Positions 6,691 through 56,036 of a stretch of 64,000 nucleotides of DNA are shown here, in pieces (positions within the stretch are counted from its first letter, which is position 1; every line of letters begins with the position of its first letter). A program made the position numbers and the translations under genes. The stretch lies in the NCBI GenBank assembly GCA_905250025.1, contig CAJNOJ010000413.1, forward strand, positions 13,524 through 77,523. Direction: 5' to 3'. The stretch is from Adineta ricciae. Taxonomy: Eukaryota; Rotifera; Eurotatoria; Adinetida; Adinetidae. The notes beneath the pieces are model-generated. The model ran no database searches and was not told the origin of the DNA. It was given only the letters and a program-made list of their open reading frames with translations.

Positions 6691-6925
6691 CCGCTGTGTT
6701 AGAAATGCGTGGAAAGCTTATGTGTTGATCTTTTAAAAGAAAGGGTTGTCATACGATTGTATTTAGTTTGATTGCAAAATACTACAAGGAGAATATACCC
6801 TTATATGAGAAAAACCGAAGAAGACAAAAATACGACGTAAGTGTATGAAACTTCCCTCAATTATAGCTAGAAAAAGACTGCCATGACCGTGCATGATAGA
6901 GATTTATTTTGTTCTTGATAATTTC

Positions 6926-9900: not shown

Positions 9901-12265
9901 TCGTAAAAGGCCAGCGTTTTGCTTGTTAGCATTCCTCTCTTTGCCCTCGCCGTCATCATTTTCAGATTCATCATCAAAAATTGGCTCTAGAAAAGGTTCT
10001 CTTAACGAAGAGCTAGTTTCTCTGGATAATATGAAAGTTTGTATGGCACTTACAGGTCTCAGAGCTGGATGATCTGACAGCAACGATTTCATTTGGCTAA
10101 GACTGCACTTATTCGGAAGTGAGACATTCAGTTTGTGTGCCAAAGTTAANTGATCTTTTACGAAATGCAACTAAGTCATTATGCATATAGACACCTTCTA
10201 GTTGTCACGCATTTTTTTTCTTTTAAAAACTCGATCCAAATGGAAAAACAAGATCAGATTCATGATTAGCGTCAAAAACTGCACCCGCGTGTGTATGAGC
10301 TAGCCGAAGAAGCGACGCACTGTAACTTCGCATTGGGTGCACCTTACCTACTTCACTTTTAGAATTTATAACATTACTTCGCCTACCTGCATTGCCTATC
10401 AAGCAAAATGGAGTGAAAGCTGCTTGCCGATCTTCGTTAATTTTCTTTTTCAATAAATCAATATTGATTCTATATTGATCATCACACGGTATTAATCGTA
10501 AAGAATCACTTCCCAAACCTAAAAGTTCGAACGCTCTTGTAACGCAGAAATGTGTTTCACTCGAGCAGTAGGCTACGATAGGATTAGTCTTCATTGCTTC
10601 TGTTATTCCATGACGACGCACCGATCTTTCACCATTATCTTTTAATGCATTATTGCGTGCGGTACAAAGCGCAATAATTGTTGCCATGCTTGATCCGCTA
10701 ACCAACAAACTGCTACATGCTGTTGGAAAATCAAATATTTGACGTACCCACTCTAATACACATTTTTCAAGTAAAAGACCACTATTTAATCGTCCTGCTA
10801 CACTAACATTCAAAGTACTGGTGAATAACTCTGCCAATATTCCACCAACTGTACAAGCATTGCCTCCAACCCAGCCCCAAAAGCGCGGATGAATGTTACC
10901 ATTACTATATGGAAATACTAGCGATTTTATGCTCTCACAAATATTTTCCATTTCTTGAGGAGTTTCAGGTAGTCTTTCGTCAAGTATTTTGTTTTGTATG
11001 CCTAATGGTATCGGCTGCCAAGCTGGCCGATCACGAATGGTTTGAAGGAAGTTAAGACAGTATGTCAGCATGGAATGTGCTAATTTTCCAGTACCAGTCC
11101 AACATACTGGATCCAACGATATTTCTCTAGGTAGTTTGCTTTCTTCGACTCTTCGATTTAACCAGGGAATTTCTTTGGCTGAATAGCGATAAGCTCGACA
11201 TAGAACATTATTTCTAGATAGTAATAGCTTCTTCGTCAGTGGATCACGTAGCTGATTAAAATATGGATTAATATATTCCCAGCAGACTGTCCCATCAACA
11301 GTCACCTCAAAGAGTCGTCCAAAAATTGATTCGGTTATCAATGTATTGCCATTTGGCAAACGTTGAGCCGCACCCATACACGAACTAAAAAATGACTCCG
11401 GCATATTATCTACGTACTGCCAAACTATCTGTTTTGTTTCACGATTTACTTCAATTACGCGGGAATATCGATGTGGCTGACCTTGACGATAGTTACCATT
11501 GTCGAATATAAGAATATTTTGATTCAGTAGTTCCGTTGCATAAGACTGTTGAGCAAGGAGTTCAGAACCGATGCTCCATATAACATCGCCACTTAACTTA
11601 CTTATGATGATGACCGACGATACTACACGAAGACTTGCCAGCACGCTTTTCCCGTCAGACATGGGATAAACACTGCTGATCCATGGCCAATGATAACGGT
11701 CAAATATAGTTTGAATAGGATAAGCTTGATATGAAAGATGATCATCTGCTTTCCATTCCCAAAGTAAGTAACCTTGCTTGTCAATCTCTTTAATAATGTC
11801 CGAATAAATAGTTTCTTTTCCCTCCCTCTCTCTATGTACTCCGCCAACAATTTCTTTACACCTTTGTTGATCTAATGGTAGCATAGTCGTGTAAAGTATG
11901 CGTCCGTCATCATAGTAATATGCATCACTATGACCTAGATTGTCGTTGTTTTCACGTAGTACAACACCATTTTTATCAACTTCAACCATTAAACTACTAC
12001 TCATTAAACCATGCTGTGAAAATGGTAACCTGTCAAAGTCTGGATATTCTCCATTAAGTGCCAAGTTACCATTAGGAAGCAGACGTGCAGATAATCCTCT
12101 GTGAACATTCAGTGCCCATCGATGTAGTTCGTTTCCGTACATATCGATAAGATAAACATAGCCAGAGTCGTTTAACGGTGTGAAAAGCGTATACCCATCG
12201 TAAGCTAATTTCTCGTCGATACCAATGATGCCAGTAGGACGACGCATGAGACTGTTTTGAAGCAT
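6926..12265 (-). CDS. Fusion: arylsulfotransferase-like propeller plus PLP-dependent group II decarboxylase
   Basis: Two exons, 12265-10387 and 7716-6926, join in phase (donor GTAGGC, acceptor CTACATAG) to give about 889 residues. Residues 1 to ~340 resemble the arylsulfotransferase-like beta-propeller family, with repeated strands such as ARLLPNGNLALNGE, NLGHSDAYYYDDGRILYT and QRLPNGNTLITESIFGRLFE. From ~385 the protein is a group II pyridoxal-phosphate decarboxylase of the aromatic amino acid decarboxylase type. It keeps the His that stacks on the cofactor (SSETHFCVTRAFELLG), the Asp that binds the pyridine nitrogen (FHVDGALGG) and the Schiff-base Lys in a His-Lys-Trp motif (AFDFHKWLQVPF). 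The junction reads GNAGTTNTGAIDN, as expected for the family. I know of no standard enzyme with this pairing. The decarboxylase probably yields an amine from an aromatic or acidic amino acid; the propeller's role is open. No signal peptide is seen. Confidence 0.85.
7717..10386 (-). other. 2.67 kb intron of the fusion gene
   Basis: The interval has a clear GT donor and AG acceptor on the minus strand and interrupts the decarboxylase domain. It contains no recognisable gene, only AT-rich sequence and the foldback at 9720-10348. The retained start of the foldback lies within 40 bp of the donor. Confidence 0.75.
9720..10348. repeat. Inverted repeat with about 190-bp arms, N base in loop
   Basis: Arms 9720-9909 and 10155-10348 are close inverted copies sharing blocks such as CCAATGCGAAGTTACAGTGC and GCGTGACAACTAGAAGGTGT. 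The loop is about 245 bp and holds a single N at 10150, five bases from the right arm. It may be a genuine foldback element inside the intron, or partly a join between inverted copies made during assembly. Confidence 0.7.
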
Positions 12266-19681: not shown

Positions 19682-20504
19682 ACCCAGCTGTGTTCTTGAA
19701 GCGATGGTCAAGGAGTAAGATGTTCAGAAGTTTCGCACTCATAGTACGGCATAATAAAGCTAATATTATGTTTAAATCAATAGAGACGTAAACAACAATA
19801 TATCTTATACGTCCACTTTTCTCTTCATTTTTTTCTTTTGCTTTCAAAGAAAACAATACAGACGCGGCGATCGATGCCTGGGTTGTAAACAAAATATCGA
19901 CGATAAAGTGACATATCTCACTACTGACGAACACGTCTATCCATTAAGAAAAATAAAGGAAAAAGTCAGAAAATTCGGATACAATAATAGACCGGGCCTT
20001 CTAATTGACTGGATAAATATAATTTGTAATTGGGTCTTCTAAACTGAGGAGGGGTTTACTTCATTTTTTACTATAAAGGGAAATAAAGAATAAAGGAAAA
20101 ACATTTTTCCTCGCAAGCTCCACATTACATCTTTTTCAGATAGTTTACACAAAACTAGGAGACTATAGGACATAAAAAATTTCCCAATAAAGTTTTTTTC
20201 TTTAAATCTTCTATGAATCAGCTTCATTTACTGATATTATCTTATACCAGAATGTCACTGGTGAAAAAAAAACAACTAAGCTTGATGTTTCCTGTTGGTA
20301 TATCAATTATTTATCTGTTTATGGAGTAGTAGAAATTAATTTCTTTATCCTTTATGTTAACTTTATTTTTCAAAGTGAAAATAAAGAATACAGATTTTCT
20401 TTATTTCTTTATAAAATTAAAATAAATTAACACCCCTACTTTTCAGATATTTTTATCTTTCAAATAATTCTTTGGCAGCATTTTTGCGACTCCATCCATT
20501 TCAA
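19682..20504. other. Region upstream of the NRPS, no gene seen
   Basis: AT-rich DNA directly before the first NRPS exon. It presumably holds the promoter. I see no coding frame joining the NRPS in phase, so the start is placed at the first in-frame ATG, 20505. Confidence 0.4.
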
Positions 20505-22086
20505 ATGTCTTTGAGTATGGAAATCGCGCTCTCACAGAAAATAAAGAAGCAGCAGATGGTACCAATGCTATCACCAAGTGTCATTCCCGCTACTGGACTT
20601 GCGCAGAGCATAGCTTCTTTTGCTCAACAACGTATTTGGTTCGATGAAAAATCTCATCATAATTCTGCGACATCATCAATTGCAAACAATCTTTTATTAC
20701 CGTTAGTGATTAAGGGTGGTTCGATGTCAATAGAGTATATTCGTACAGCAGTGGATACTGTTCTTGAACGACATACGGTTCTTCGAACAGCCATTCAGTT
20801 TGATGAAGAATGTGGAAAGGTGATTCAACAGGTGCAACCCATGGTGAAAAGCTGTAGTTATTCTTTTCAACTAACAAAGATGAGTCTTCAATCTCAAGAT
20901 GAGATTGGCGATTTACTCAAAAACGAATCTCTGAATCGATTTGCTAAATTAGAGCAAGGTTTGGTTGTCCGTTGTCATGTGGTAAAGATAAGATTTGATG
21001 GCGATATGGAAAATATTTATCCGGATGACCTTATTGTCTTTGTATTTCATCGCGTTTCTTTTGATTATAACTCTGCTGCTTCGTTTATCACTGCTTTTAC
21101 GCAAGCGTATGATCAAAACGAATGTAATGTTACGAATTTGCAATATATTGATTTTACTCTGTATGAGGATCAACAATTGATCAATGGAAACTTAAATTCT
21201 GAGATAGTGATAGCTCAACAGTTTTGGCACAAAATGATCAATGATTATAGTTTGGATGAGAAATATCCACTGCCACTCACGTTTATGCTAAGAGATGAGA
21301 TACATTCTGAACGAGAATATCGCACATCATTTGTTCTTAATTCAAATTTAATGAAAGCTCAAATTAAATTTGCAGTCTCACATAATGTATCTATGTTTCA
21401 GCTTGGATTGGCATGCTATTTTCTTCTTATCTATGAATTAAATGATCGCACTATTAGCGATTTATGTGTGACTTGTCCTACAGAAAATCGACCAGTAGTC
21501 GACACGAAATCAATGATTGGTGCATTTGTGAATATATTACCATATCGTATTCGAATCAATGCCAATGATAGTTTTATTAACTTAGTGAAGCAGATTTGTC
21601 AATTGGACACTGACATTCTTAAACATTGTCAACTACCTTATCAGCAAATCGTTAGTGGAAACAAAAACTTATGTTCCAGAAAAATTCCATATCATTTTTC
21701 TTATGATTCAGTTTGCTTACTTCCACTAGATGAAATGATATTAACAACAAAGACAAAGGACGCCACATTAAGTTTATATACCGATCACCCATGGTTGCAT
21801 GTTAACGGTGCTAGTTCTACTGATTTTGCGTTAAAAATGATCTACGATCAGTCTAGTCGAACAACTTACTGTACTTTTGAATGCAGAGGTGACTGTTACG
21901 ATGATATGACAACAGCCAGTATCGGTCAACACTTTCATAATCTTCTCTTATATATTTTTGGTCAGAGAACGGAAAATAATGGATTCGATCCAACACGTGA
22001 AAAAATTGGAAACTTCTCTCCTCTACAGATATCTATTCCAAATTCCTTAGAACTTTCTCAGTATTTACCAAATGTAACCGAAACAA
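20505..22086 (+). CDS. NRPS exon 1: condensation domain Ca1 (probably inactive)
   Basis: This exon encodes the N-terminal condensation-family domain. The C1 motif is seen as ASFAQQRIWFDE, and the C5-like motif as IGAFVNILPYRI. The His-His-x3-Asp-Gly catalytic motif is altered to FHRVSFDYNS: the second, catalytic His is Arg and the Gly is Tyr. Condensation activity is therefore doubtful, and the domain may be a scaffold or a relic. The start is the ATG at 20505; the frame is open a little further upstream without an ATG, so an unseen 5' exon remains possible. It ends at an AGTAAG-type donor with one base of a split codon, which joins exactly to the Cb1 exon at 22257. Confidence 0.85.
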
Positions 22087-22256
22087 GTAAGTCTTTCAAA
22101 ACTAGCTATTCTAGACTACTCGTTCGTAAACGCTTATAAGTTAAAAGTTACATACGGCGAAAAACATTCTGATTTGGTTAAAAATTTCAAAATCTCTTCG
22201 GACTTCAAAACGCAAGTTTTTTTCTAGTATACAAGGATAATGATGGATCATTCTAG

Positions 22257-25200
22257 GTCCAGCATCCTATATGCAAACTCGAATTTGGTTGGATGAACGA
22301 AGAAGACATTGTGATTTTAACAAACCACAAGCAGCAACTTACAACATAGCATTTTTTTATCGTCCTTTCCATGACAATACTTTGTCAACAAATCAGCTAT
22401 GTCAAGCTCTCCAACTCATTATCAACAAACATCATGCCCTTTGTACATCATTTATATTCGATACTGCTAAGGATTTGCTCATGCAGCATATCCTCGATCA
22501 GAAAGATAACAAAGGCAATACGTTTTCAATCGTCGAAAGCATGTATGACACTGATGAACAATTAACTGATATCCTGTATAATGAACAGACTAATTCGAAA
22601 CTCTTTGATTTATCTCTAGGTCTTGTATTTCGATGCCATATCGTCTATCATAAACACACCTCTAGAAAAGGTATAGTCGGTGAAAGAGACGTGCTCATTT
22701 TAAATTTCCATCATGCTGTATTCGATCTTTCATCAATGAACATATTTCTTGATGATCTTAATCAAGCTTATACAACGAATCAACTTCGAACTGATGACGA
22801 TAGTTTACTAGATTCTTTAAAATGTAAATATATATCATTCGCATACTTCTTTGTCATAAAATGCAATATTTCTTCTGTATCGATTAGATACAATCATTGA
22901 ACAACAAATGCCAATGCCTACTGCTACTATGTTTTGGTTTAGTACACTTCGTGGTTGCAATATTGATCAGTTACCACCATTACCATTTGATCGTTATCGT
23001 GTTTCGAGTAAATCTCAAACAAATCATGGGATATCTATTACTTTCAATTTTGACCAAGATTTATCGCGTAATTTTCTTTCTTATGGGTCATCAAATCATA
23101 TTAAGCCTGAATATATAGCACTTACTACTTATTATGCATTTTTATCCAAGTTAACAAATGGAGAAAAGGATTTATGTATCGGAATGAATGCAGATGGCAG
23201 ATACAGAGATGAATTAAAATCAGTGATTGGAATGTTTGATAATGTGTTTCTATTACGATGTCAATTAGATCCTCATTGGTTTTTCCCTCAATTAACCAAG
23301 TCTGTTTGTGAAATGGCAACAAATTGTAAAAGATATTCTTATTTTCCATTTCAACGCGTTCTAAGTCAACATTCAAGTACTTCGGAGCTTACGTTTCCTA
23401 ATACATTTTTCGCATTTCAATCTACTAAAAATGAAATTAACAAGAATAAAATTAGTATCGGTGATTGTTATATGTATACCATGCGCCTTCCAGTTAAAAC
23501 AAGGGAAGGTGAAATACCAAGTAAATATGATTTTATTCTTAGTATTAAACATGATATGAATATAGATCAACTTTCCTGTACGATTAATGCGTCACATGAT
23601 TTATTTAATGTTGAAACAATTGATAAGATATCACAACGATTTCATGCGATGTTAGATCAGTTATTTATATCTGGTGATATTCAGATGAATAAGTCACTCA
23701 ATGAATTATCATTAATATTACCACATGACCGATTACTTATGAAATCGATCAATAATACAGAAATATCGCCCCCTTCTGTCACTTGTATACATCATCAATT
23801 TATTTATCAAGCAATGAAATATTCACAAAAACAAGCTGTTGAGCTTGATGAGCAATCTTTGACATATTCTGAACTTTTATATTACACACAATTGTTATCC
23901 ATGCATATTTTGAATCATCATTTAGTCATTCCAGGTAAAATCATATGTCAATGTGTAAAGGCTAGTATATCAATGGTAAGTAAATCAATCAAATATACTA
24001 TTTAATGCGGGAGAATATTGTTTATTAGGTAATTGGTATGATGGCAATCGAAGTGACTGGTAGTATCTACTGTCCACTTTCGCCTCAAGACCCTCGAGAC
24101 AGACTGTATTCACTAATCGAACAAACTCAATGTCGTCTAGTTCTTGTTCATTCAATGACACAAAATATGTTTCATGATAAGTATCTTAAACTCAATATTG
24201 ATACTACGATTAATATTGATAAGATAGCTAATGATGATTATCTCGATCGACTATCGCGCGTAGAAGTCACTTCGGAAAGCATTGCGTATGCAGTCTTTAC
24301 TAGTGGTTCGACCGGTATTCCTAAAGCTGTGAGCTTATATTCCTTTTTATGTAATTTTATACTATTAATAGCATCCTCTTTGTAGTCCCAAGTACGTCAC
24401 CGAAATTTTTCATGTTATATTCATTCAGTTGTATTGGTCAGTTCTCTCAGCAATATGGACATAGTGATACAGTTGGCTGGCTGTTCTTTTGATACTCATG
24501 TCGATGAGATTCTAGGGGCACTTATTAGTGGCTCAACACTTATTATGCTGCGTCCAGAAGGAAATATGGATTTTGAATATATAGCCACAACGTTGACTAA
24601 AAAGCAGCTCACCTACATTGGTAGTGTACCAAGCTTTTTCGATGGTCTTCTTAGTTTTCTTAGAAGCAATGATCGGACAGCAATTCTAGAATCATTTCGG
24701 TTAATTTGTATTGGCGGTTAGTAACTTTCTGAAATCGGCTGTATTCGCATGAATGTATTTCTAATTCTTTTGTTTTAGGCGAAACTCTTTCTGTTAAAAT
24801 GGCGAGTCTGCTGAAATCCAGTGTGTCTCACAATTGCCAAGTTCTAAATTTCTACGGACCAACTGAAGCAACAATCGGTTCTACTTTTTGTCTGGTTGAT
24901 AATATATCTAACGTAATGAGTATACCTATTGGGCAATTACTTTCCAACTATACATGTTTTGTTGTCGACGAGTTTTTCCAACCTGTTACTGCAAATCAAG
25001 AAGGTGAGCTGTTTGTTGGTGGTGAGGGCGTCTTTGCTGGCTATCTCGGCCGAGAAGATTTAACCGCGAAAGCACTTTTCGATTTCAATGGGTCGAGATA
25101 CTATCGTACAGGTGACCTTGTTAAAATAGATAATAATGGCCTTCTTTATTTTATTGGTCGAAAGGATTTTCAAATTAAATTACGTGGACAACGTATTGAA

Positions 25201-25760
25201 CTTGGTGAAATTGAACGATGCCTACTCAACATATCTATCTCTGCTTGCATTGTCATTAAATGGGATGATGATCACCTAATTGCTTATGTTCAAAGTTGTG
25301 TTGTTGATGAGAAACAATTACGTAAACATTGTCAATCTCATTTACCACGTCACATGGTTCCGTCAATGTTCATCATCCTAAAACAATTACCATTGAATAA
25401 TAATGGGAAAATAGATCGAAAACGTCTGCCACCTCCTAATTTGTCGCTACTGACTTCGTCATCGCCAAGTGCATCTAGCACTCCGTTAAATCAGTTGGAA
25501 CAGCGTGTTCATGATATATGGTGTGAATTTCTGAAGTGTGATGGACGTTGTCTGCCGACAAACAAGAGTTTTTTCGATATTGGAGGGCATTCCCTTTTGT
25601 TAATTAAACTTTATAATCGCTATCAAACTTCGTTTGATTTTGACAATCGTACGTTGTCTATTGGTTTATTTTTTCAAGAATCAACTATTATTCAACATGC
25701 AAAATTATTGCAGACAGTCACGATTAAGAGTATACGGACGAAACAAACGTATACTTTAGG
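22257..25760 (+). CDS. NRPS module 1: Cb1-A1-T1
   Basis: Exons 22257-22823, 22888-23975, 24029-24328, 24386-24716 and the first part of 24779-30298 join in phase. Cb1 has C1 as PASYMQTRIWLDE and the active-site motif FHHAVFDLSS; the usual Gly is Leu but both His and the Asp remain. A1 keeps A3 (FTSGSTGIPKAV), A5 (NFYGPTEAT), A7 (YRTGDL), A8 (GQRIELGEIE) and A10 (NNNGKIDRK). My alignment of its pocket residues gives D-T-D-G-I-I-F-I-G-K, which I cannot match to a known substrate; the leading Asp indicates an ordinary alpha-amino acid. T1 carries the phosphopantetheine site as DIGGHSLLL. The module looks catalytically complete. It runs straight into Cy2 without an intron. Confidence 0.88.
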
Positions 25761-28700
25761 CGTAAATCAAATTGAAAAATACCGACCATTTCCAGTTACA
25801 GAAATCCAACAGGCATATCTTATAGGACGAGAAGTTATTAATCAGTCTGATCACGCTTCTTGTTTCCAGTATGAAGAATATGACATGTCATCAACAATTG
25901 ATATTGAACAATTGGAGAAAGCGTGGAATTATTTAATTCAACGTCATGAAGCCTTACGTATCATCTTTCCGTCTAATACAGAACAAAGAATTCTCGAAAA
26001 GGTTCCTAACTACACGATATTTATATTGGACTTGAATGATATTCAATCAATCGAAGAAGTATTAATAGAACGACGGAAACAACTATCACATCAAGTTCGA
26101 CCATCAAATCAATGGCCACTTTTTGATATTCAAGTGACCTGTTTTAGTATTGGCAATGAATTTTATAAACGTTTGCATATCGGTCTTGATCTTCTCGTTT
26201 TGGATTTATGGAGTATAAAGTTAATTATGAGTGAATGGAATCAGTTGTATTTTATGTCAAATGCTCCTTTGAATACTATAAATCTTTCTTTTCAAGACTA
26301 TGTCTTGACTCAACGACAATTTAAAAATACAACTACTTATAAAATGGATAAAAAATATTGGCTTGATCGTTTAAATTCCTTTCCATCAGGTCCTAATTTG
26401 CCATTACAATGTTTGCCAAACGAGCTACACATTCAGAGACATTGTAATTCGTCCTTAACATTAGACAAATCAATATGGCAGAAATTAAAACAACGTATTA
26501 GTAATCATAAGTGGACATCAGTTAACTTTTTAATATCTATTTATGCGATAGTTTTGTCCAAATGGAGTGAAAACAAACATTTTGCTTTTAATTTACCAAT
26601 TTTTAACCAGTCATCTACTCATTCACAAGTAAATGACTTAGCAGGTAATTTTACAACAACTCTGCTATTAGAGATCAATTTAACTGAACCAATTAATTTC
26701 AATCAATTCATTGAAACTATTCAAAAACAGTTACGAAACGATCTCGAACATATATCTTACAGCGGCGTATCATTTATTCGCGACTTGATGAAAGCACGTC
26801 AAACAAGAAAAATAATCTTACCAATTGCTTTTACATATGGAATAGGTACTCCTGACACAAATAAAAACAACAATCCAGAAAATTACTGTTTAGATCAACT
26901 GCCGGTGTATTCGATTGTTCAAATACCACAAGTTTTTCTCAACCACATTGTATTCGAAAAAGATGAACATTTATTAACCAATTGGAATTATGTAGAAAAT
27001 TTATTTCCATCAGAAATGATCAGTAACATTCATCATACATTCATTGACGTACTTCAACAATTGGCTTTGTGTGATGATATGTGGTACAAACCGCTCTTAA
27101 TCTCGCTTCCAATTAAACAACAAGAAAGAAGAGCCAATTTTAATAAGACACAATGGAAATCAAATACCAAAGAACAATTACTGCATTTACTCGTCATGAA
27201 ACAAGCTCAACAAACACCCGAAGCTTGGGCTGTTCAAACTACAAGTCAAAGCTTAACTTATAAACAGCTGGTGGATCGTGCTTATTCATTGGCATATTAT
27301 TTACAGCAACAACATGAAATGGAATGCAATCAAATAATCGGCGTCCTAATGAAGAAAGGTTGGGAACAAATTGTTGCTTGTTTATCTATTTTAATCTCGG
27401 GTAATGCTTATTTACCTTTGGATATTGATTCATCAGATGATCGCCTGTCTTCATTGATTCAACAAACTAATGTTAAAACTATTCTTACACAATCTGATTG
27501 TCATCATCAATTTCAAAATTTAACAACCATTTCAGTTACAACGTTCTCCAATATCGATTATCCTAAACCATTTCCTTTGAAACAGCAATTAGAAACCGAT
27601 TTAGCTTATGTTATCTATACATCTAGCTCAAAGTGTCACCCAAAAGGTGTTATGATTAGCCACCAGGCGGTGCTTAATACAATTATTGATATGAATTCAA
27701 GGTTAGAGATTTCTCCTAATGACAGCGTACTTGCATTATCCCATTTAAATGTTGATTCATCGATTTATGATATATTTGGAATGTTGATCAAAGGTGGAAC
27801 TGTCGTTGTTCCAGATCATGAACATTACAACAATCCCCAGCATTGGTATGATATGATGATTAAATACGAAGTAACTATTTGGAATACTATTCCTATGTTA
27901 ATACAAATGTTAATTGAATTTTTAAAACAGAATTATAGTCAAACACAATTAAGACATATTTTATTAAGTGGCGATTTAATATCATTATCTTTAATAAAAT
28001 CAATACGGAAAACATTTGGTGAGCAATTAACAATAACAAGTTTGGCTGGTGCAACAGAAGCATCGATTTGGTCAATTGCTTATACATTACCCGAGAAGAT
28101 TCCACAAAAATGGAAATCAATTCCATGTGGAACACCATTAAGAAACCAACAATATCACGTTTATGATATAAATCTTAATGAATGTCCTGAATGGGTGACT
28201 GGAGAATTATATATTGGTGGTGTTAGTCTTGCTCATGGATATTGGAATGATCAAGAACATACAGATTTAAATTTTATTATTCATCCACGAACTGGTGAGC
28301 GTCTTTATCGAACAGGTGATTATGGGAGATTTATTTCTGATGGTTATATCGAATTTATTGGACGAAAAGATTCTCAAGTTAACATTCATGGTCATCGAAT
28401 TGAACTTGGCGAAATTGAATATTATTTACAGCAACATTCAGATATTCATCAAGCAGTTGTTACTCAAGATCAAAATTCTCGACAATTAGTTGGATATATT
28501 CAACTACAAACAAATTCTCATCATCATAATGAATTTGATCAATTAGAAATTTCAATGTTTGATCCAATTGAACGTACTAATTTTAAACTTGCAAGGCATG
28601 GAGTAAAACGTCAATATGTAGATGAAACAAGTTTTGTCTTGACGAGACCAGAGCTGACAGAAAAATTAATTAGTTCTTACTATCAAAGAAAAACTTATCG

Positions 28701-30298
28701 ACAATTCATGAATGACATTGTTGAAAAATCGGATATTGAACACTTATTAACTAAATGCTATAGTAATAAGAAAAATACCGAACACATATCTGAAGATAGT
28801 TTCAGTTTCGATACTCTCAATTATTTATTATCATTATTAACACCGATTAATGTTCTCAATCAACCTTTACCTAAATATCGATATGCATCATATGAAAACC
28901 TTTATCCTGTTCAAACATATATTGAAATTTGTACATTCTCACAGAATATATCGCCTGGTCTCTATTATCATAATCCAGTTCAACACACCTTACAATTAAT
29001 TGATGCCTTTGTTGACTGTAAGAATATTAATACACGTCTACATCTCATTGGACGATCAGCGGCAATAGCGCCTCTGTGTGGAAAAACATTAGCTTCACAA
29101 TTTTGTGAACTAGAAACGGGTTATATTATAGGATTATTGAAAAAAGAAGCAGGTCGATTAGGATTTATAATTACAAGAACTAACCACCATGAGATACCAA
29201 TGTCTATTTTCAATTTAGATGAAAATGATACTCATTATTGTTTCGAGTTTTCATCTGTAAAAGAACATGTATGTGATAGTTATTATCCGCGTTGTATTAT
29301 TTATCAAAAGTTCGCTCAAAATAACGCAGATCAATGGTTTACCTATGATGAGAAAAATGAAGCTATTACACCTCTTGATACCGAAGTAGCTACAGTAAAA
29401 GAAGATATACCATTGTCCTTTGAAACTGATAATTACACGAAAGCCATATTTCGTAACTGTCAAACTGTGATCTTTTTCATCGGACGATCTAAAGACAGAC
29501 TAAGCACTGGTATAATGTCACATTCACTAATGAGTGATGGCTTAGAAATGAATATTGGTATGTGTCCAATTGGCGTATCTACGAGTTTGCCAATCAATCT
29601 TCGTACTACACTAGATATTGTTCAAGCTCCTGATTTTTTGAATAGACAAGATAAATTGTTACATACATTATTCATTGGAAAAATAACTAACGAACAAAAG
29701 TATGACCGTGCAATTTCGACCGCTAGATCAATGTCAGATTATAATTTTTTGTTGAAAACGTATTTAAACAACAAACTTCCAAATTATATGATACCATCAT
29801 ATTTTCGGCATGTCGAGACGTTTCCATTAAATTCAAATGGTCAAGTTGATCGGGAATCCTTAGCGAAAACATCAAGGACAAGTTTACAAAAAGAAAACAC
29901 TTGTTTACCACCAAGCACTGAGTTAGAAAAGGTGATTGCAAACATTTGGAATCAAATATTGAGTAAAGACCAATTATACAATGATTTGACATCGAACGAA
30001 TGCAATCAATTGCCGTTGATTACAAGCCAAGCATTATCTTCAGATCTTATTCAGTTAAATACTTCAACGTTTTTTCATCAATCAAATTCAGATAGCTTCT
30101 TCGATGTTGGTGGTGACTCTCTTTTACTTCTTCACTTGTATCAGCAGTACCAAGCACTTTTCAATTTTGATCCTGATATTCTACCGATTCGATCATTCTT
30201 TGAGTGTGATACGATAGCTGAACACGGAAAACTTCTGCAAGCAGTTATACCACATTCCATTCAAACAATACGATGGCAAGCGCTGAATATTACTCAAG
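25761..30298 (+). CDS. NRPS module 2: Cy2-A2(Cys)-Ox2-T2, thiazole-type
   Basis: One intronless stretch of about 1,510 codons. Cy2 (~25780-27130) opens with FPVTEIQQAYLIGR, the heterocyclization Cy1 motif, and carries D-x4-D-x2-S as DLLVLDLWS in place of HHxxxDG. A2 starts near 27170. Its pocket residues read D-S-Y-N-L-S-L-I-W, against DLYNLSLIW for cysteine. Between A8 (HGHRIELGEIE) and A10 lies an oxidase (~28520-29700) of the McbC/SagB nitroreductase-like type, with ENLYPVQTYIEI, GLYYHNPVQHTLQLI and a late MCPIG motif. T2 has DVGGDSLLL. Such modules in bacteria cyclise cysteine to thiazoline and oxidise it to thiazole with FMN. Two oddities: the A3 loop is TSSSKCHPKG rather than TSGSTGxPKG, and A10 reads NGQVDR with Gln for the catalytic Lys. 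Activity is therefore not certain. Confidence 0.9.
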
Positions 30299-30994
30299 GT
30301 AAAGGTTTAATGCTGCGCGAAGAAGTACACAAAAGTAGGAGCGAAGCAATTAGCTTAATTAAGTGGATCAGATCAGATCAGATAGGTACCTTATTTGTTA
30401 CAGACGTTGGCTAACATGATGCGCCAATTCTTCCGACCTTGTTTTGCGTGAAGAAAGTCTATTTTCGTGTAACCCTGCTTTTCAATCCAAAGGTTCACGT
30501 TTTCTAAATATTTGATTCTCGGTCGGCCTTTATCTTCTTTCCATTGAGCTTTCACTCAATACTAGATATTCTAAGCAACCTTTACGGGCTATATGGTCAA
30601 GGAATTTTAGTTGCCTATAATGGATGGTATTGATTAAAAATCTGCCCTATTTCGTTCTTTTCAGCATTAATTCGTTTGTTTCTCAAGCAGTCCAAGGTAC
30701 ATTAAGCATTCTTCTGAGAAACCATATCACAGTAGCCTCTAAGCGATTTTTCATTTCTTTACTAATTGTCCAACATTCGGAACCGTATAATAGTATCGAC
30801 CAAACGTATCATTTAAGTACTCGTGCTTTAGTGTCGATCGATATGGTTCTATTTTTCAGAACGGCACTCATCTTTTGAAACGCTTGTTTAGAAAGAGCTA
30901 TTCTCATTTTGATGTCTTCATCACATCTACCCATCTGAGGTTATAATGGATCCCAAATAGTGGAAGCGATTTACTTGCTTGATTGGTTCTCTAT

Positions 30995-31807
30995 TTATGT
31001 AAAATTTGTATGTCGGTATGATTTTATTCTCCGAAACACACATACATTCTGTTTTCGTGATATTGAGTGATAGTCCAATTTTATGTTTTCTTTTGAGACT
31101 ATATCAATCATTTTCTGTAGATCTTGTTCATTACTTGCCATTAATACAGTGTCATCTGCATATATTATATTATTACAATTGTTACCTCCGATTTTTATTC
31201 CTTCAACATCTTCCAGATTTCTAAGTATCATTTCACTATATATGTGGAAAAGATCTGGAGATAGAACACAGCCTTGTCTGACACCTCTCTTTATACCTGT
31301 GTATTCAATGGTATCGTTATTTATTCGTATGGCAACTCTTTGATCCCAATAAAGATTTCGAATTATTTGTAGATCCTTGCCATCGATTTGAAGTTTTTCC
31401 AAAATTTGGAATAGACTGTCGTGTTTGACTTTATCAAAAGCTTTTGTGTAGTCAATGAAACATAGGTATAGGTCATGCTTGACTTCAATTGATCTTTCGA
31501 TTATCATTCGAAGGATGAAGATTGCATTTCTAGTGCCCTTATCAGGAATAAATCCATATTGCTCTTTTGGTATTTCTGGCGTAATCTTATTCTTCATACG
31601 CAACATCAGAATCTTTAGCAAAACTTTTGTAATATGACTCACGAGACTGATTGTGCGATGTAATTCATATTCAGTAGCGTCAGGCTTCTTTGGAAGTGCT
31701 ATGAATATTGATTTTGTTAGGTCTTCCGGAATTTCACCGGTGTTATGTATTTTGTTTATTAGTTTTGTCATGATATATACACCTAATTCATCGAGGCATT
31801 GAATCAT
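30995..31807 (-). pseudogene. LINE reverse transcriptase fragment
   Basis: About 270 codons cover the core of a non-LTR reverse transcriptase: a fingers segment EQYGFIPDKGTRNAIF, the first catalytic Asp in LCFIDYTKAFDKV, the RQGCVLSPDLF block, and the YADD box in NNIIYADDTVLMAS. The frame is lost after the thumb region, although the downstream C-terminal motif is still recognisable in other frames to about 30400. Upstream, remnants at 31839-32367 belong to the linker between endonuclease and polymerase. Several frame changes separate the parts. Confidence 0.85.
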
Positions 31808-32677
31808 TTCGATGGATATTCCATCTGGCCCTGTCGCTTTATTTTTTTTTCATTGATTTTATAGCCAGTCTTATCTCGTCTTTCATTATTGGAGGGCCTT
31901 CTATATTTTTCTTAATGCAAGGCTTAGAAGCTTTATTATCATCGAAGAGTTCCTCTATATATTCGGACCACCTGTTCAGTATGTCACCTTCTTCCATTAG
32001 AACGGTTCTATTTCTTAATTTAATACAACCTGAACTGGCGCGCATCTTGATTTTCCTGTTATTTCGTTGATCTCTTGATGAGCGAATTTGGTGTTTACAC
32101 TCAACTTATTTTCAATCTCTGAACATTTGATTTGTCTATCAGTTGGTATTCGTGAGGGTTTGACTTTTCTAGTCGTCTTTGCTCCATCAGTTGTAAAATT
32201 TCATTAGTCATCCATCTTTTCTTTTTCTTTATTTCAGTTCTTAGAAATATTTCTTCGGCAGATGTTAGTATTGATGATTTCATCTGTTCCCACGACACCT
32301 CAGTTTCTGTAATTTGGCCTAGTGCCTCAAAACGATTCTGTACTTTGATGCGAAATTTTTCTTGCAAATTTCGATCAGTTTTCAGAATATGAACCTGAAG
32401 CTTTATGTTTTTCTGTGGCTGTTTTATTCTTTTTAGTTTTACTCGAATTTTGCTGATGACTGGGACATGATTGCTATCGCCGTCCGCCCCAGGAAATGCG
32501 TTTGAGAAGATTATTGAATTCCTGAATCGATGAGGGGCTATAATATAGGCTATCTGATTTGTTGCCTGATCTCCTGGGCTTCTCTATGTCCATAGTCTAC
32601 GTGGGTGATTTCTGAACCATGTGTTTGTGATTACGAGATTATGTGATTGACACCATGCTATTGAGTTATCTTCTCTA

Positions 32678-33268: not shown

Positions 33269-34503
33269 TGTACAGCGGTGGTTTCCCCTTGCCTTCCACC
33301 GAACTAAGTGAATAGAAACGTAAAATCTTTCGGCGTGGGTAGGAGATTTTTTTGAAAAAATTGTTACGCTGGCAAAATTTTCTAACCGTTTATATATATA
33401 TTGACTTAAACCCAAGTGACATGATGACATTTTGATCACAATATTTCTATCACTGTCTAACAATACAGTGTATTCCAGAGTTTGTTTATGGGTAGTAGCA
33501 AGCACCTCTACCATCCATATCCCCTCCCAAAGTTGTAGCTGTTTCGACATGTTATTAAGAAACTATATAAGAAATAAACTGCGTTACACAAGGACAAAAA
33601 TTTAGAAGGACACGTTGATCTCCTTTTTTTCTGCGAATGCGTACGACATAAAAACAAATGTTTCATACAATTTTTGTAGCTAAAAATGGAGAGTGTTCAA
33701 CAAATAACCGCATTCTTCCAGAATGCTTCTATTAATGTAATGCGATGGCAGTAGTTTCTTGACTCGATTCTTCTGTACATATTTCGGCGTATATGCAGCC
33801 GTGTATTATTAGACTAGTGTGCTATATGTCATAATTGCAAGAAATATACGTGAATTTTTTTGTGCTGTTNNNNNNNNNNNNNNNNNNNNNNNNNNNNNNN
33901 NNNTGTACAGCGGTGGTTTCCCCTTGCCTTCCACCGAACTAAGTGAATAGAAACGTAAAATCTTTCGACGTGGGTAGAAGATTTTGTTTGAAAAATTGTT
34001 ACGCTGGCAAAATTTTTCTAACCGTTTATATATATCGACTTAAACCCAAGTGACATGATGACATTTTGATCACAATATTTCTATCACCGTCTAACAATAC
34101 AGTGTATTGCAGAGTTTGTTTATGGGTAGTAGCAAGCACCTCTACCAACCATATCCCCTCCCAAAGTTGTAGCTGTTTCGACATGCTATTAAGAAACTAT
34201 ATAAGAAATAAATTGCGTTACACAAGGACAAAAATTTAGAAGGAAACGTTGATCTCCTTTTTTCTGCGAATGCGTACGACATAAAAACAAACGTTTCATA
34301 CAATTTTTGTAGCTAAAAATTGAGCATGTTGAACAAATAACCGCATTCTTCCAGAATGCTTCTATTAATGTAATGCGATGCCAGTAGTTTCTCGACTCGA
34401 TTCTTCTGTACATATTTCGGTGTATATGCAGGCGTGTATTATGAGACTATTGTGCTATATGTCATAATTGCAAGAAATATGCATGAATTTTTGTGCTGTT
34501 GAA
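33269..34503. repeat. About 600-bp direct duplication across an N gap
   Basis: The block 33269-33869 and the block 33904-34503 are direct copies with a few percent differences, separated by exactly 34 N bases (33870-33903). The first copy ends at the same base where the gap starts, and the second begins right after it. This pattern suggests two alleles or two contig ends placed side by side instead of overlapped. I see no gene in the block. Confidence 0.8.
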
Positions 34504-37500: not shown

Positions 37501-37925
37501 AATTGACATAAGCAATATTCCATCTTTTTACAGCAAACATCAATTTCCGCTAGTTAGTTCTGAAACATAGCTTGATATAATATTTTATTAAATATATCCT
37601 AGTCACGTACTAACAAAAAACTGATGACTATCTTTTACTGAATTCACAGATCTATAAAACTCCTTTCACAACTTCCTCAGTACAGTATAGTTTAACAACA
37701 ATTTCGATGAAAATATAGAACAAAGTAAATTCCCTCTATAATAGAAGACTCGCTTAAAAGTTTTCAGTGTAAAATGTAATTATACATCTTGGAGTCTTTT
37801 ATTATAGAGAAAGATCTATAGGACTTTTCAGATATACACTACATCTAGATGGAATCCTATATTGCAAACAGTTGCATTTCAATTTTTATGCAACAGATTA
37901 AAATATTTTATCATAAAACATCTAG
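34504..37925. other. Non-coding DNA, nothing recognised
   Basis: About 3.4 kb of AT-rich sequence before the Ca3 exon. Short open frames lack any recognisable motif, and I found no long inverted repeat or RNA gene. Confidence 0.45.
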
Positions 37926-39392
37926 GTCCTGCGTCTTTTGCTCAAGAGCGGATCTTTCTTGACGAACAAGTTCGCTTTTCTGATGAAGTTGCCATCTACA
38001 ATGAATTATTGGTTCTGCGAGTCGTCGAAGGTTCAGTATCGATCGCTCGTTTATTAAAAACGCTTCAACATATTTTAAGCAAACATACTATATTACGGAC
38101 ATCTATTATTTTTGATAATGAAGATAGTACTTTAAAACAATACATCACGGATAGTAATCTATTATTCTCATTATTTAATGAGAAAACATTTGAAAATGAA
38201 AGTGAATTATTTGATATTATCTATAAGCTTACAATCAATCCTACTTTGTTTAATCTGTCTGAGGGTCGAGTGTTTCATTGTGAAATTCTTCGACAACAGA
38301 ACTCATGTACTGATAGTAATGGCAATGAATGGATCAAGAAGTGTGACATTCTTATAATGGCTTTCCACCATGCAGTATTTGATGGATCAACTGTCCCTAT
38401 CTTTTTGGAAAATCTGACTCTTACTTACAATAACAATTATAAAATAACATGTTTTGAAGATGACCATTCAATGCAGTATATTGATTATAGTGTACATGAA
38501 CGTTTGATGGATATGACATTGTCTCGTGAATTTTGGCATTCTGAACTTGAAGGCTACGATTCCGAACATGCATCAGCATTACCAGTTGATCGATACTATT
38601 CAACTGCTCATCAACGATCAGGTTTATCGTCGACAGCTTTCATAACATTCAGCGAGGAAACTTCGAAATCGTTCCTTGACTATGCATCTTCACATCAGGT
38701 CACACCGTTTCAGTTAGGATTAGCCATCTTTTATACATTTCTATTCAAGTTAACTCACGGTCAAACTGATCAATGTATTTCTTGCGTTAATGCCAATCGA
38801 TACAGAACTGAATTACAGGATTTGATTGGAATGTTTGTTTCAACCTTACCATATCGTGTTCAAATCGATCCTTATTGGTCATTTGTTGAAGTTGTCAGAC
38901 ATGTCCGAGAAAAATGTTTATCAATTCTTGAACATTCTCATTATCCATTGCAGCATATCCTTGCTGACTTTCATTTCAATCCATTGAGTATCCCATTTCT
39001 TCAATCAACCTTTGATATTATAACTGTTACTACAGAAACCAATTATGTATCTTTGAAGGGCGCAAGTTTAGAATATGTACCAATGGAATTATCTTTCGAA
39101 GCGGCGAAAATTGATTTTTTAGTGAGATTTGTTTACAATCCAGTTTCCAATGAAAATCAACTATCGTGTTCATTCATCGGCTCGCGAGATTTATTTGATC
39201 AACCGACAATCGTAACTATGAGCGTTAGATTACAACATCTTTTCAACCAACTGTTTTCATCAAATTTTTCAGCCAATAATTGGAATGATTCCATTTATAT
39301 CCCTGTCATTAAGTTCGATCTAATCTTACCGGAGGAAACTGAAGAAATCAAAAATGTTGTTTTTTGTCGACAGTCTAGTATTGTTAATGAAG
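37926..39392 (+). CDS. NRPS exon: condensation domain Ca3
   Basis: A single 1467-nt exon encodes a complete condensation domain. It begins with the C1 motif PASFAQERIFLDEQ, carries the intact catalytic motif FHHAVFDGST, and has the C5-type motif IGMFVSTLPYRV. Its end, ILPEETEEIKNVV, looks like the start of the linker that normally leads into an adenylation domain, but the coding sequence instead stops at a GTATGT donor and continues with another condensation domain. The exon is exactly as long as the Ca4 exon. By motif this is the most intact Ca domain in the window. Confidence 0.9.
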
Positions 39393-41076
39393 GTATGTCT
39401 GTCTGCTTATTATTGAAATACTTCATACATGAGGCGTACAAATAAATATAAGAAGTTATTATTTTAGAAAAGAAAGTTAAAAAAATATTATAACTGTTTT
39501 TGTCTTTTGAAGAGAAAACAATGGACATATGAAAAGATCCGGATCATCTATTTTGTTCTTTCATTTACAACTTTTAGAGGGATCTGACCTATGCGTAGTA
39601 TCGTATGAAGTTCGCTGAACCTTCAATTGGTCTGCGAAGCTTTGGAAAGGCCCACAAGTGCTCCACAGAATTGTTTGAGGATATGTTAATCAATGATTCA
39701 TTTGGGACCAATGCCACCGAGCCAGTGACGTATCCAGGAGCTAGTACTGCAATACTACCGATATTTTCTGCCAGGCCACTGAGAAAATATCCGCATTAGG
39801 TATATTCCTTTTTTCGTTATGTTATCTGTGACATAATGACGTCATTGGGACCTTGGCTTCCTTGGAGATATTCCACAGGAGTGTTCGGTATGGTCATAGT
39901 ACTTAGGAGATATTGTCGGGACATTTCTCATCTTCTGATCCTATATATACTCGCATTTTTTTCTATGTTGTTGGTTCAGTTTTCGTTTAATTTCCAAATA
40001 AACATTCATTCATTTTAAGACGTGACATTATCGTAGGAGTAAGATATCAATAAATCTCTGATAACTAGTCATATTCCAAGAGTAGTGCAGATAATCTAAC
40101 AATTCCGTAGTAACTACTACCACTGGATAATCAGGCAAAGAGCCAAAAATCCATTGCATATATGGTGTTTTCAAAATCGCTTGAAAATTTCGGTGCATAT
40201 CGTGATTTCACAATTTATAAATTGCGACATCTATTGCAGTAAATCACAATTCTCATAGAACATGATGTTAACCGCGATTTACCACTCAACCCAAGACGAT
40301 TTCGAGCACAAGGAAATATATTGCGCTCCGCATGAAATAATCGATATAAGCTTAATCGCTACCAATGCCCAGATCGAAGAGTACGGGTCAGTACCCATAG
40401 GAAAGCACCGGAGATCGCTGGAGCATGAAAGCAGTATTCCAACCGGTAATTTTCAGATTTTTTTCGATGCTTTCCTGCGGGATCCGGACAGCGAAACATT
40501 CGACATAATTGGCAAGAAAACAAAAAATTAGAAGTCTAAAACGCTATTTTCAATTCTCACGAACAGACAAGTGATATAATTGTTTTTTAAAGTTTTCTAA
40601 GACATTGCTATATCAGCGACCAAGTCCTGGATACGCCTTTACACTGAACGTTCGATGTTTTGATAAAGTATGTCTAGTTTACTCTGAAAGGTTCTGAACT
40701 TTTGGAGAGTTAACAAAACCATTGATGGTTCCGGACAAACCCACCGGAATTTCCAGCTGGCCTATGAAACACAGACTAAAACTGGTGATAGAATACGAAA
40801 CTAGAAATGGTTCCGTTAAAATGTTACAAAGCTATTGTTAGTTTAGCACGACATTTGTCAAATGTTATCTATTTCGCTGAACAAACCATCGCTCAATGAA
40901 AAATCGAACATTCTTTGAGGCTTGTCAAAATATTAAATTTTTTTGAGCATGTAGCAAGAATATTACGTCCATTGTCTGAGCTTGCATATCAATGTGATCA
41001 GCGGATAGAGTTTTAGATTACAGTTTCAACATAATAGATATTGAAAAATTCTAAATCATTACATTCTTCATTCAAG
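39393..41076 (+). other. 1.68 kb intron between Ca3 and Cb3
   Basis: Flanked by a GTATGT donor and a TTCAAG acceptor with matching phase. It holds small open frames without recognisable content and no clear repeat. The matching intron between Ca5 and Cb5 is 1655 bp and that between Ca1 and Cb1 only 170 bp. Confidence 0.5.
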
Positions 41077-44000
41077 CACCAGCGTCATATGCACAAGCTC
41101 GCATTTGGCTTGATGAGAAAATGCGATTCGATCCTGACAATCCACAAGTTGCAATCTACAACATGCCTTTTGTTTATCATCTTTCGCCAAACAGTACTAT
41201 ATCAGTGAAGCAACTTGAGCATGCACTCAATCTCACTGTTAACAAACATTTATCGCTTCATACAGCGATAATTTTCGATTCGAATAAAAATAAATTAATG
41301 CAACGTGTTGTACAAGTCAATGACAATTATATGACAGCATTTGCATTTATGCAGAGTACTTATGAAACACAAGAACGATTGAATGATGTCATACATGAAG
41401 AGAAACGAAATCCTCAACTTTTTAATCTTAGCCAAGGTCTTGTTTTTCGATGTCATCTTGTTTACTACAAACAAGTCTCTTCAAACAATCTACTTTCTCA
41501 TAAAGATATAATCATCTTTAATTTTCATCATGCATCATTTGATTTTCCATCAATGGATATATTTCTTCATGATCTCAATCAAGCATATACAACAGGAGAA
41601 CTAATTGACAGTAATGGTGAAAATACGTTTACTTATCTTGACTGTAAATAGATAGATACATTTTTTCTTTCTTTCCCTCTCTCTAATTCTTTTTGTTTGT
41701 TCTATATAGATGCCATTATCGAACAGCAGATGTCAATGACTGGTGCTAGTATGTATTGGCTTGATATTCTTCATGGTTGTAATCTTGATCGATCATTACC
41801 ATTACCGTATGATCGGTATCGTCTTTCAAATGAACATCGAACTGGCCGTGGAATATCTGTTTCTTTTGATTTTGAACAAGATCTTTCCTATGAGTTTCTT
41901 ACTTATGCGTCCACTAGCAACATATCACTTGACTATTTAGTACTTGGTACTTATTTTATACTTTTGTTCAAATTAACTAATGGAGACAATGATCTATGTA
42001 TTGGAATGAACACACACGGACGTTATCGAGATGAGTTTATAGCTATAATTGGCATGTTTGTCAATGCTATTCCACTACGCTGCCAACTTGGTCCTCATCT
42101 GAATTTCCATAAATCGATAGATTATATACAAGAATTAATGACAAATAGTATGAGATATTCATATTTTCCTCTTCAACGTATTCTTGGTCAACATCCTCAT
42201 ATATCAAATCCTGCATTTCTTGATACATCATTCCAATTTACATCATCTATAACATACGATAATAAAAATAAATTAATGCTTGATGATAATGAACTTACTT
42301 TAGCACCCTTTTCGATTGAGATCAGTGAAGGTGAAATTATGAGTAAATTTGATTTTATTATTAGTTTTCATTATTATTTGGATCTTAATCAAATCTCATG
42401 TACAATCGATGCATCGCATGATTTATTTAACGTTGAAACTGTTAGTAAGATTTCACAACAATTTCATTCCATGCTACATCAATTATCTGCATCCATTCAT
42501 AGTCAAATAAATCAACCGCTCTATGAGTTGTCATTAATATTACCAAATGAACAGTTGCTTCGACAATCAATGAATAATACAGAAATATCCTTTCCTTCTC
42601 TAATTTGTATTCAGCACGAATTTGTTTCTAAGGCAATTCAATATTCGCAAAAAGTAGCTGTTGAACTAGATGAGCAATCTTTAACTTATGGAGAACTCTT
42701 ATATTATGTTCAAGTATTATCTTTGAATCTTCTTAATGAGTCCCATATCTCTCCAGGTGAAGTCATTTGTCAATGTGTTGAGAGAAGTATAACAATGGTG
42801 AGTTGATAAGCGAGCGACGTGTGTATTAAGATGAATGAGAAGCTATTATTCACTATAGATTATTGGTATAATGGCCATTGAAATGGTAGATGCCGTGTAT
42901 TGCCCACTATCGCCGCGAGATCCAATAGATCGTTTGCATAAGCTTATCGAACAAACTCAAAGTCATATTATTCTTGTTCATTGGTTAACCAAGAATAAGA
43001 TAAATCATAAATATAGATCAGTAAATGTTGATTTAATATTGGCTAATAGTGACGCACATAGCTATATAGTCGTTGCTCAATTATCAAACATCATAGTGAG
43101 AGCAGAGCATATTGCATACATCATTTTCACAAGTGGCTCCACTGGAATACCGAAAGCGGTACGCCAAATATAAAATTTTAGCACGAAGTATGTAACACAA
43201 CCATTATTTTCATTGTAGGTTCAAGTTCGACATCGAAATATCATAGAATATAGAGATTCGATTGTTTTTATCCACTGGATCAGTAGAATTGATGTCCTTC
43301 TTCAGATTGCGCATTGTTCGTTCGATCTTCATGTGCAAGACATAGCGTGTAGCCTTACGACCGGAGCCTCTCTTGTTCTTCTACGTCCAAGAGGAATTCT
43401 CGACTTTAACTACCTTCTTCATACGATACGAAGGAAAAATATTACTTCCATTACTACTGTTCCGACTTTGCTTCAACATTTGTTTACTTTTGCACGGCAG
43501 ATGAATGATCGTAATGTCCTGGAATGCCTTCGTTTAGTTTGTACTTGCGGTATGTAAAAAATAAACAACTTTTTCAACTAAACTTGGGAACCTATTTCAT
43601 CTTATAGGAGAAATCTGTACAGTGAAACTAATAACACTAATGTCGAGCACTATGACAAAGAATTGTAAACTCATGAATGCATATGGCCCAGCCGAAACGA
43701 CCAATGGTTGTACTATTCATGTTTTGGATCACAATATGAAAAGCGAAAACATTCCAATTGGACGACCTCTGGCAAACTATCTGCATATAATATTGGATCA
43801 ATATTTGCAAAATGTGACAGTCAACCAAGAAGGAGAGCTATTTGTCGGAGGAGTAGGGGTCTTTGCTGGCTATCTTGGACGTGATGATTTAACAAGCAAC
43901 TCACTGATTTATATCGATAGTTTATTATTTTATCGAACCGGAGATCTTGTCAAGATAGATAATAATAATAATATACATTATCAAGGAAGAAAAGATCATC

Positions 44001-55969: not shown

Positions 55970-56036
55970 GTAAAAAAAGCAACTTAAAGCTGACATTATG
56001 CTCAATTGGATATTTGTCTTTTCTCTCTCATTATAG

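Follow-up and report, generated by a model that had tools for sequence, protein, structure and literature searches.

A 64,000-nucleotide stretch of contig CAJNOJ010000413.1 of the bdelloid rotifer Adineta ricciae (the window, on which part coordinates are given) encodes, at positions 25762-30297, a thiazole-type module of a non-ribosomal peptide synthetase (NRPS), composed of a heterocyclization (Cy) domain, an adenylation (A) domain with an embedded oxidase (Ox), and a carrier (T) domain. This Cy-A(Ox)-T module occupies a single open exon inside a larger, interrupted synthetase gene. Sequence comparison indicates, with a probability of roughly 60%, that it is a silent member of a bdelloid family of such modules that is kept in frame in the middle of its synthetase, skipping being the likely outcome. 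The original prediction, made from the DNA alone, had proposed a working module that places a thiazole or thiazoline in a peptide. Its layout stands, with the domains in the order Cy-A-Ox-T in one open exon, but a working module is not supported, in view of changes at the Cy dyad and floor Asp, the A3 loop, the A8 and A10 lysines and the oxidase Tyr, and the prediction had not mentioned that the Cy, A and Ox domains have lost catalytic residues. Because of these losses, both Cys loading and cyclisation are most likely absent from the module.

In intact family members, the A domain would load Cys onto the T domain, the Cy domain would condense this Cys with the upstream peptide and cyclodehydrate it to a thiazoline, and the embedded flavin mononucleotide (FMN) oxidase, a putative fused pseudodimer, would turn the thiazoline into a thiazole. 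In the window copy, the base Tyr of the oxidase was probably lost before the split from Adineta vaga, whereas loss of the Cy Asp, of the A3 loop and of the two A-domain lysines would have followed later, in the window lineage. The peptide chain most likely skips or passes over the module, the frame and carrier of which would have been retained because it sits mid-chain in a large synthetase. The wider scenario, that bdelloids make thiazole or thiazoline peptides through intact modules such as that on a second contig of the same genome (C8), and that the window holds a silent, skipped in-frame module with a shortened peptide, its oxidase switched off first and loading and cyclization afterwards, is put forward tentatively, as possible rather than probable.

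Module layout and domain identity

The module lies in an open frame of 1893 codons with zero stops (24733-30414, forward strand). Introns were deduced from reading frames and GT/AG signals. The genuine 5' splice site of the exon is probably somewhat 3' of 24733, and its 3' end, 30298, is immediately followed by a GT whose context suits a splice donor (CAAG/GTAAAG). The module and the carrier before it comprise the following parts.

24733-30298, forward strand: open frame of the module-bearing exon, which continues by chance to 30414
25501-25689, forward strand: T (carrier) domain preceding the module (Pfam PP-binding, residues 235-297 of a 1871-residue open reading frame)
25789-27066, forward strand: Cy domain (Pfam, PDB sequence comparison)
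27199-28413, forward strand: A domain as far as motif A8 (Pfam, motif alignment)
28450-29700, forward strand: embedded oxidase, modelled as a pseudodimer in which two nitroreductase folds are fused (PDB sequence matches, structure models)
29830-29853, forward strand: A10 motif NSNGQVDR (motif alignment)
30103-30129, forward strand: carrier motif DVGGDSLLL of the module's own T domain (motif; phosphopantetheine Ser at 30118-30120 intact)

The Cy1 motif FPVTEIQQAYLIGR (25789-25830) and the DxxxxDxxS motif, reading DLLVLDLWS (26188-26214), are both present, as originally read. The 453-residue Cy query matched 27 distinct PDB sequences, the top eight of which contain Cy domains and score 145.7-218.2 bits (three BmdB sequences, Irp2, EpoB, HMWP2, PchE and 6lta, the last of which we take to be a Cy enzyme), whereas the remaining 19 score at most 56.5 bits. 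The lead of the Cy structures upholds the assignment as a heterocyclization domain, and an ordinary condensation domain was rejected on these scores. Both motifs and the closeness to known Cy domains thus place the domain in this class, and the Asp-Thr dyad of the class is incomplete in the window copy.

The substrate pocket of the A domain reads DSYNLSLIW (D-S-Y, N, L-S, L-I-W, with Asp, Ser and Tyr at 235, 236 and 239) at positions assigned via GrsA numbering, in agreement with the earlier reading. In a residue comparison of 28 bdelloid rows, position 236 is Ser in the window versus Leu in all 27 others, and the C8 pocket is DLYNLSLIW, which we take to be the Cys code.

The oxidase, of about 417 residues, is sited between A8 (about 28360-28413) and A10. 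Its Pfam match is weak (19.8 bits, cut-off 23.5); among PDB sequences it matched three at E up to 0.1, each a BmdC oxidase. Structure prediction, a check set beforehand, gave a model that matches the nitroreductase fold and, together with the BmdC matches, confirms the proposed McbC/SagB-like oxidase inside the A domain. Furthermore, 3eo7 matches both halves of two oxidase models, and a second BmdC stretch weakly matches the C-terminal half. By these models, the window oxidase looks like a fused pseudodimer of two nitroreductase halves, as described for indigoidine synthetase. A 420-position profile of the bdelloid oxidases matched many bacterial modules piecewise (about 1-92, 115-230 and 356-416), and its match to most bdelloid rows was unbroken. 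This matching pattern and the models spanning both halves led to the rejection of a single, EpoB-type oxidase, so that the parallel drawn with epothilone synthetase holds for an FMN-oxidase-type insert in the A domain but not for the single form of the oxidase.

The T domain expected after the oxidase was found as DVGGDSLLL. Pfam lists one carrier stretch only, that of the preceding module; the window module's own carrier rests on the GGDSL motif, the Ser of which is conserved in every other bdelloid row that has a letter there (24 of 24).

Catalytic losses and selection on the frame

Within the Cy dyad of the window the Thr is intact and the Asp has become Asn (26941-26943); this Asp is present in 22 of 23 other bdelloid rows with a letter at the site, including A. 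vaga and C8. In addition, the floor-loop Asp is Asn (26647-26649) and the latch Thr is Ile (26923-26925). Mutations of the Asp-Thr dyad severely affect cyclodehydration, according to PMC9547227. In the A domain, the A3 loop TSGSTG reads TSSSKC (Gly, Thr and Gly to Ser, Lys and Cys; changed at 27625-27636), the A4 Phe is Val, the A8 Lys is Asn (28381-28383) and the catalytic A10 Lys is Gln (29842-29844), while the A5 Glu and A7 Asp are kept. The A8 and A10 lysines are described as stabilising the two half reactions (PMC11253843). All of these changed sites (Cy floor, latch and dyad, A3, A4, Leu236, A8 and A10) are canonical in A. vaga and C8, and at the A3 loop and the two lysines the window copy lacks the marks of a Cys-activating A domain.

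The oxidase shows a probably older pattern of change. The Tyr that aligns with BmdC Tyr260, a correspondence inferred from a chain count that fits the published numbers with an offset of two, is Cys in the window (29077-29079) and in A. vaga and Tyr in the 26 other rows; for the analogous Tyr, a role as general base has been proposed (PMC8795117). The SAG motif reads SYE in the window and likewise in A. vaga, and the RKTYR motif is intact. The same set of residues bears on whether the window copy could be active and give an animal peptide a thiazole or thiazoline ring. Every domain is present, ordered and in frame, and the DxxxxDxxS motif, the dyad Thr, A5 Glu, A7 Asp, RKTYR and carrier Ser are intact, as an active module would have them; the changed Cy dyad and floor Asp, A3 loop, A8 and A10 Lys and oxidase Tyr make an active copy unlikely.

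When each of the 28 rows is scored for columns at which it alone breaks an otherwise invariant residue, the window ranks first (21 of 289), followed by P0015 (16 of 284), with A. vaga at 4 of 272. The departures of the window are distributed as 8/86 in Cy, 12/147 in A, 0/41 in Ox and 1/15 in the A10-T part. Changes found only in the window versus only in A. vaga, counted at columns on which up to eight outgroup rows all agree (the rows used for Cy differing from those for the other domains), number 12 versus 2 in Cy, 28 versus 6 in A, 13 versus 4 in Ox and 2 versus 1 in A10-T, compared to 6 versus 9 in C3, the next condensation domain of the synthetase; the imbalance in Cy, A and Ox together differs from that in C3 (Fisher p 0.0023, A10-T excluded). 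A count over 17 long rows gave 27 versus 7.

The frame itself suggests constraint. Over 1498 residues the window and A. vaga align gap-free. In simulations of neutral change, the frame stayed free of stops in 13 of 300 runs with 50 residues changed and in 0 of 300 with 100 changed. From these results and the domain counts we infer that the frame is, or until recently was, under selection, and that Cy and A catalysis was not. A plain, unconstrained pseudogene was set aside, as the intact frame argues against it; decay of the locus was retained as a rival.

Loss in the Cy domain and in the oxidase appears to be linked across the family. Of 23 copies readable at five sites, seven have a changed Cy dyad or floor and none of these keeps SAG or SGG, as against 12 of the 16 copies with dyad and floor intact (Fisher p 0.0013, with kinship ignored and several of the seven being close kin). 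This would fit a need for the oxidase solely in ring-forming copies. In P0006, P0008, P0010 and P0021 (A. steineri), in P0015 (Rotaria) and in P0007, the dyad Thr has become Met or Leu, or the Asp His, and SAG is absent.

Several observations weigh against a silent, skipped module. At the 41 oxidase columns on which all other rows agree, the window shows no change, a count that also favours an active copy; it speaks against strong decay in the oxidase beyond the sites common with A. vaga, and the loss of oxidase function would rest on the Tyr and SAG sites. In our judgement, residual activity may persist despite the loss of a key lysine, and the skipping is a prediction from sequence. Lopsided change occurs elsewhere too, with 3/18 for P0011/P0017 and 5/21 for P0014/P0015; the eight pairs compared gave 27/7, 3/6, 3/18, 5/12, 5/21, 15/10, 5/4 and 10/7 (P0001, the A. 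vaga copy, and P0006 each used twice), and the imbalance in several of them points to repeated drift of single copies in the bdelloid family. Finally, other motifs of the synthetase look damaged by eye, namely HHxxxDG in C1 (HRVSFDY, 20472-22139) and C7 (HNVVFDF, 59119-60888) and the last A3 (TSGSADVPKLV, 60939-61301), and the intron after the module contains a reverse transcriptase open reading frame and an N gap, which makes wholesale decay a live possibility.

On this last account, the main rival, the whole locus would be a dying synthetase of which the module is just the part visibly decayed to date, with nothing skipped and little or no peptide made. The damaged motifs, the reverse transcriptase and the gap would then be its further signs. 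C3, however, is not accelerated (6 versus 9 changes) and retains HHxxxDG, the 1893-codon frame is free of stops and aligns with A. vaga without gaps, and six scanned C and A-T frames of the synthetase (10 frames scanned overall) still match their own families. Decay of the entire locus is accordingly considered rather unlikely, though it deserves more weight than the other alternatives. The module might instead have taken on a new role, with Cy used for simple condensation or gating and another A domain loading the carrier in trans. The intact DxxxxDxxS motif and carrier Ser would suit this, as would the report that dyad loss affects cyclodehydration (PMC9547227), but changes at invariant columns are raised in Cy as they are in A, and no donor A domain was identified, none having been sought; such a change of function seems very improbable.

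Animal origin, family and bacterial relatives

The assembly searched comprises 130 Mb in 1033 contigs, the contig of the window measuring 78 kb. Among the matches listed, the closest to the window module is A. vaga P0001 (73% identity over 99%), which lies on an 18.1-Mb contig, and of the C frames tested C3 is the closest to the C domain that follows this orthologue (70.5% versus 50.0% for the next). The module is thus encoded by a bdelloid, in keeping with the animal genome supposed earlier: the contig is an animal one, intron-like interruptions break up its frames, and orthologues occur in bdelloids. Bacterial contamination or an assembly chimera could be suspected from the shortness of the contig, one of 1033, and from the N gap with a repeat on either side; against it stand the interrupted neighbouring frames, the position of the module 3.5 kb 5' of the gap and, above all, the A. 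vaga orthologue with its matching following C domain, on which grounds contamination was rejected and is in practice excluded.

The window oxidase as query found at least two sites in the genome (five candidates scored), and a search with the C8 Cy domain, which scored 37 candidates, likewise gave at least two with E no higher than 1e-10; each search returned the window and contig C8. For the condensation family overall, the assembly gave at least 80 matches. The second copy is located as follows.

L004:3514-8163, near the end of a 1.03-Mb contig: C8 paralogue, Cy-A-Ox-T, motifs canonical, pocket DLYNLSLIW

It lies in an open frame of 1550 codons with SQTPQVFLD, AGDFT, YTSGSTGKPKG, FDLSVY, NGKID and SAGSLYP, and its synthetase follows the order C-C-A-T-Cy-A(Ox)-T-C, as in the window, reaching the contig end. 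Over 441 residues, its oxidase region shows 100% identity with Adineta ricciae P0009.

Trees were built by a quick method for Cy-A (48 rows), Ox (48) and both combined (38), with SH-aLRT support only, from hand-picked rows; the bacterial labels "pseudodimer" and "single" were assigned manually, according to how long the oxidase is and which pieces of it matched. On one side of a branch fall 19 copies (support 100, 99 and 100 for Cy-A, Ox and combined), of which 10 come from the window's genome, Adineta or Rotaria and nine are counted as bdelloid by tree position alone. Two more Rotaria copies join the 19 in the Cy-A and combined trees (100 and 100), and the Ox tree does not order these two, Pigmentibacter and the rest. 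By these trees the module is not unique to the window, the Adineta and Rotaria copies forming one group. Pigmentibacter sp. JX0631 (P0121) joins this group at 92, 98 and 99 and is, by sequence, the nearest bacterial relative found. A scan of prokaryote contigs with the C8 oxidase gave 12 pattern matches and zero relatives; a profile including Pigmentibacter found 126 relatives, of which 77 loci were kept, 12 being used in each 48-row tree and six in the combined tree. Presence in both genera suggests one acquisition before the split of Adineta and Rotaria, and a single ancient acquisition from a bacterium would be the simplest history of the family. The donor is unsettled, since several rows are odd in composition and some branches are long.

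P0121 has the layout AMP-ligase-T-Cy-A-Ox-T with an equally long oxidase, a layout that may point to an acyl starter to which a thiazole is added. Its oxidase is matched over the full profile, of which it was one seed, and its motifs are canonical, but its identity is 32% to the window oxidase and 34% to that of C8, and its upstream domains are others. Bacterial EpoB-type Cy-A-Ox-T modules share the Cy domain before A, the FMN oxidase after A8 and, with the C8 copy, a Cys-type pocket. They differ in their single oxidase, the insert of IndC being larger (PMC8795117), whereas the bdelloid oxidase is modelled as a pseudodimer. IndC (A-Ox-peptidyl carrier protein-thioesterase; PMC8795117) resembles the bdelloid enzymes in an Ox between A8 and A9 that is larger than that of EpoB and consists of two fused nitroreductase halves; it has no Cy domain, however, while the predicted bdelloid pseudodimer sits within a Cy, Cys-type module. 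The bacillamide enzymes BmdB and BmdC (PDB 5t3e, 7ly4-7ly7) provide the nearest solved Cy domain (218 bits) and the nearest oxidase by sequence, but BmdC is a separate dimeric protein (PMC8795117).

NRPS and polyketide synthase genes, the same gene class in the same animals, have been described from bdelloids (PMC11258130; PMC10531068). They are reported as horizontally acquired, some acquired NRPS genes are switched on in fungal infection, and a product was predictable for one cluster only (PMC11258130). The main texts of both papers contain neither "thiazol" nor "oxidase", and the single instance of "heterocycl" belongs to the title of a work cited in PMC10531068; their supplements may list Cy or Ox domains. 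The literature search, which did not extend to supplementary tables, brought up no account of heterocyclization modules from bdelloids or from NRPS of animal genomes, in line with the earlier remark that no described animal enzyme of this layout is known. If the proposal holds, thiazole or thiazoline chemistry would, as far as this search shows, be hitherto undescribed from an animal-encoded NRPS. A thiazole-type module narrows the chemistry, as it predicts a Cys-derived five-membered ring that could be found by mass spectrometry. In addition, the presence in a single genome of a copy with every motif and of a silenced copy would offer a natural test of an assembly line with a failed module, and a pseudodimeric oxidase inside a Cy module would be an arrangement held only in part by the epothilone and indigoidine enzymes.

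Remainder of the synthetase and its neighbourhood

The following further features lie around the module.

20472-24005, forward strand: two tandem condensation domains, C1 and C2, upstream; several open frames, C2 scanned in its C-terminal frame only
30998-31849, reverse strand: reverse transcriptase open reading frame (Pfam RVT_1) within the presumed long intron 3' of the module
33870-33903, no strand: run of 34 N in the same intron, flanked by a repeat of about 0.6 kb
37862-39442, forward strand: C3 (Pfam; comparison with the A. vaga C domain)

The repeat around the N run (0.63 kb, 94-97% identity, 33269-34495) resembles two haplotypes joined by a false gap. C3 had 34 PDB matches of mixed types, all weak (best 56.5 bits), by which an epimerization role is not distinguished. 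The last A-T frame (61628-62680) has its stop 28 codons past the Pfam carrier match, and no frame of at least 110 residues is listed 3' of it within the window, no search aimed at thioesterases having been made. Telomere repeats (TGTGGG) do not occur in runs of at least two units in the readable stretches. At 3252-12265, on the reverse strand, lie a weakly methyltransferase-like open reading frame and a two-piece pyridoxal phosphate (PLP) decarboxylase, the first piece of which is read on from an arylsulfotransferase domain. Modules of the form C-C-A-T, with two leading condensation domains, recur at 20472-24005, 37862-42806 and 55994-60888, and once in the C8 synthetase.

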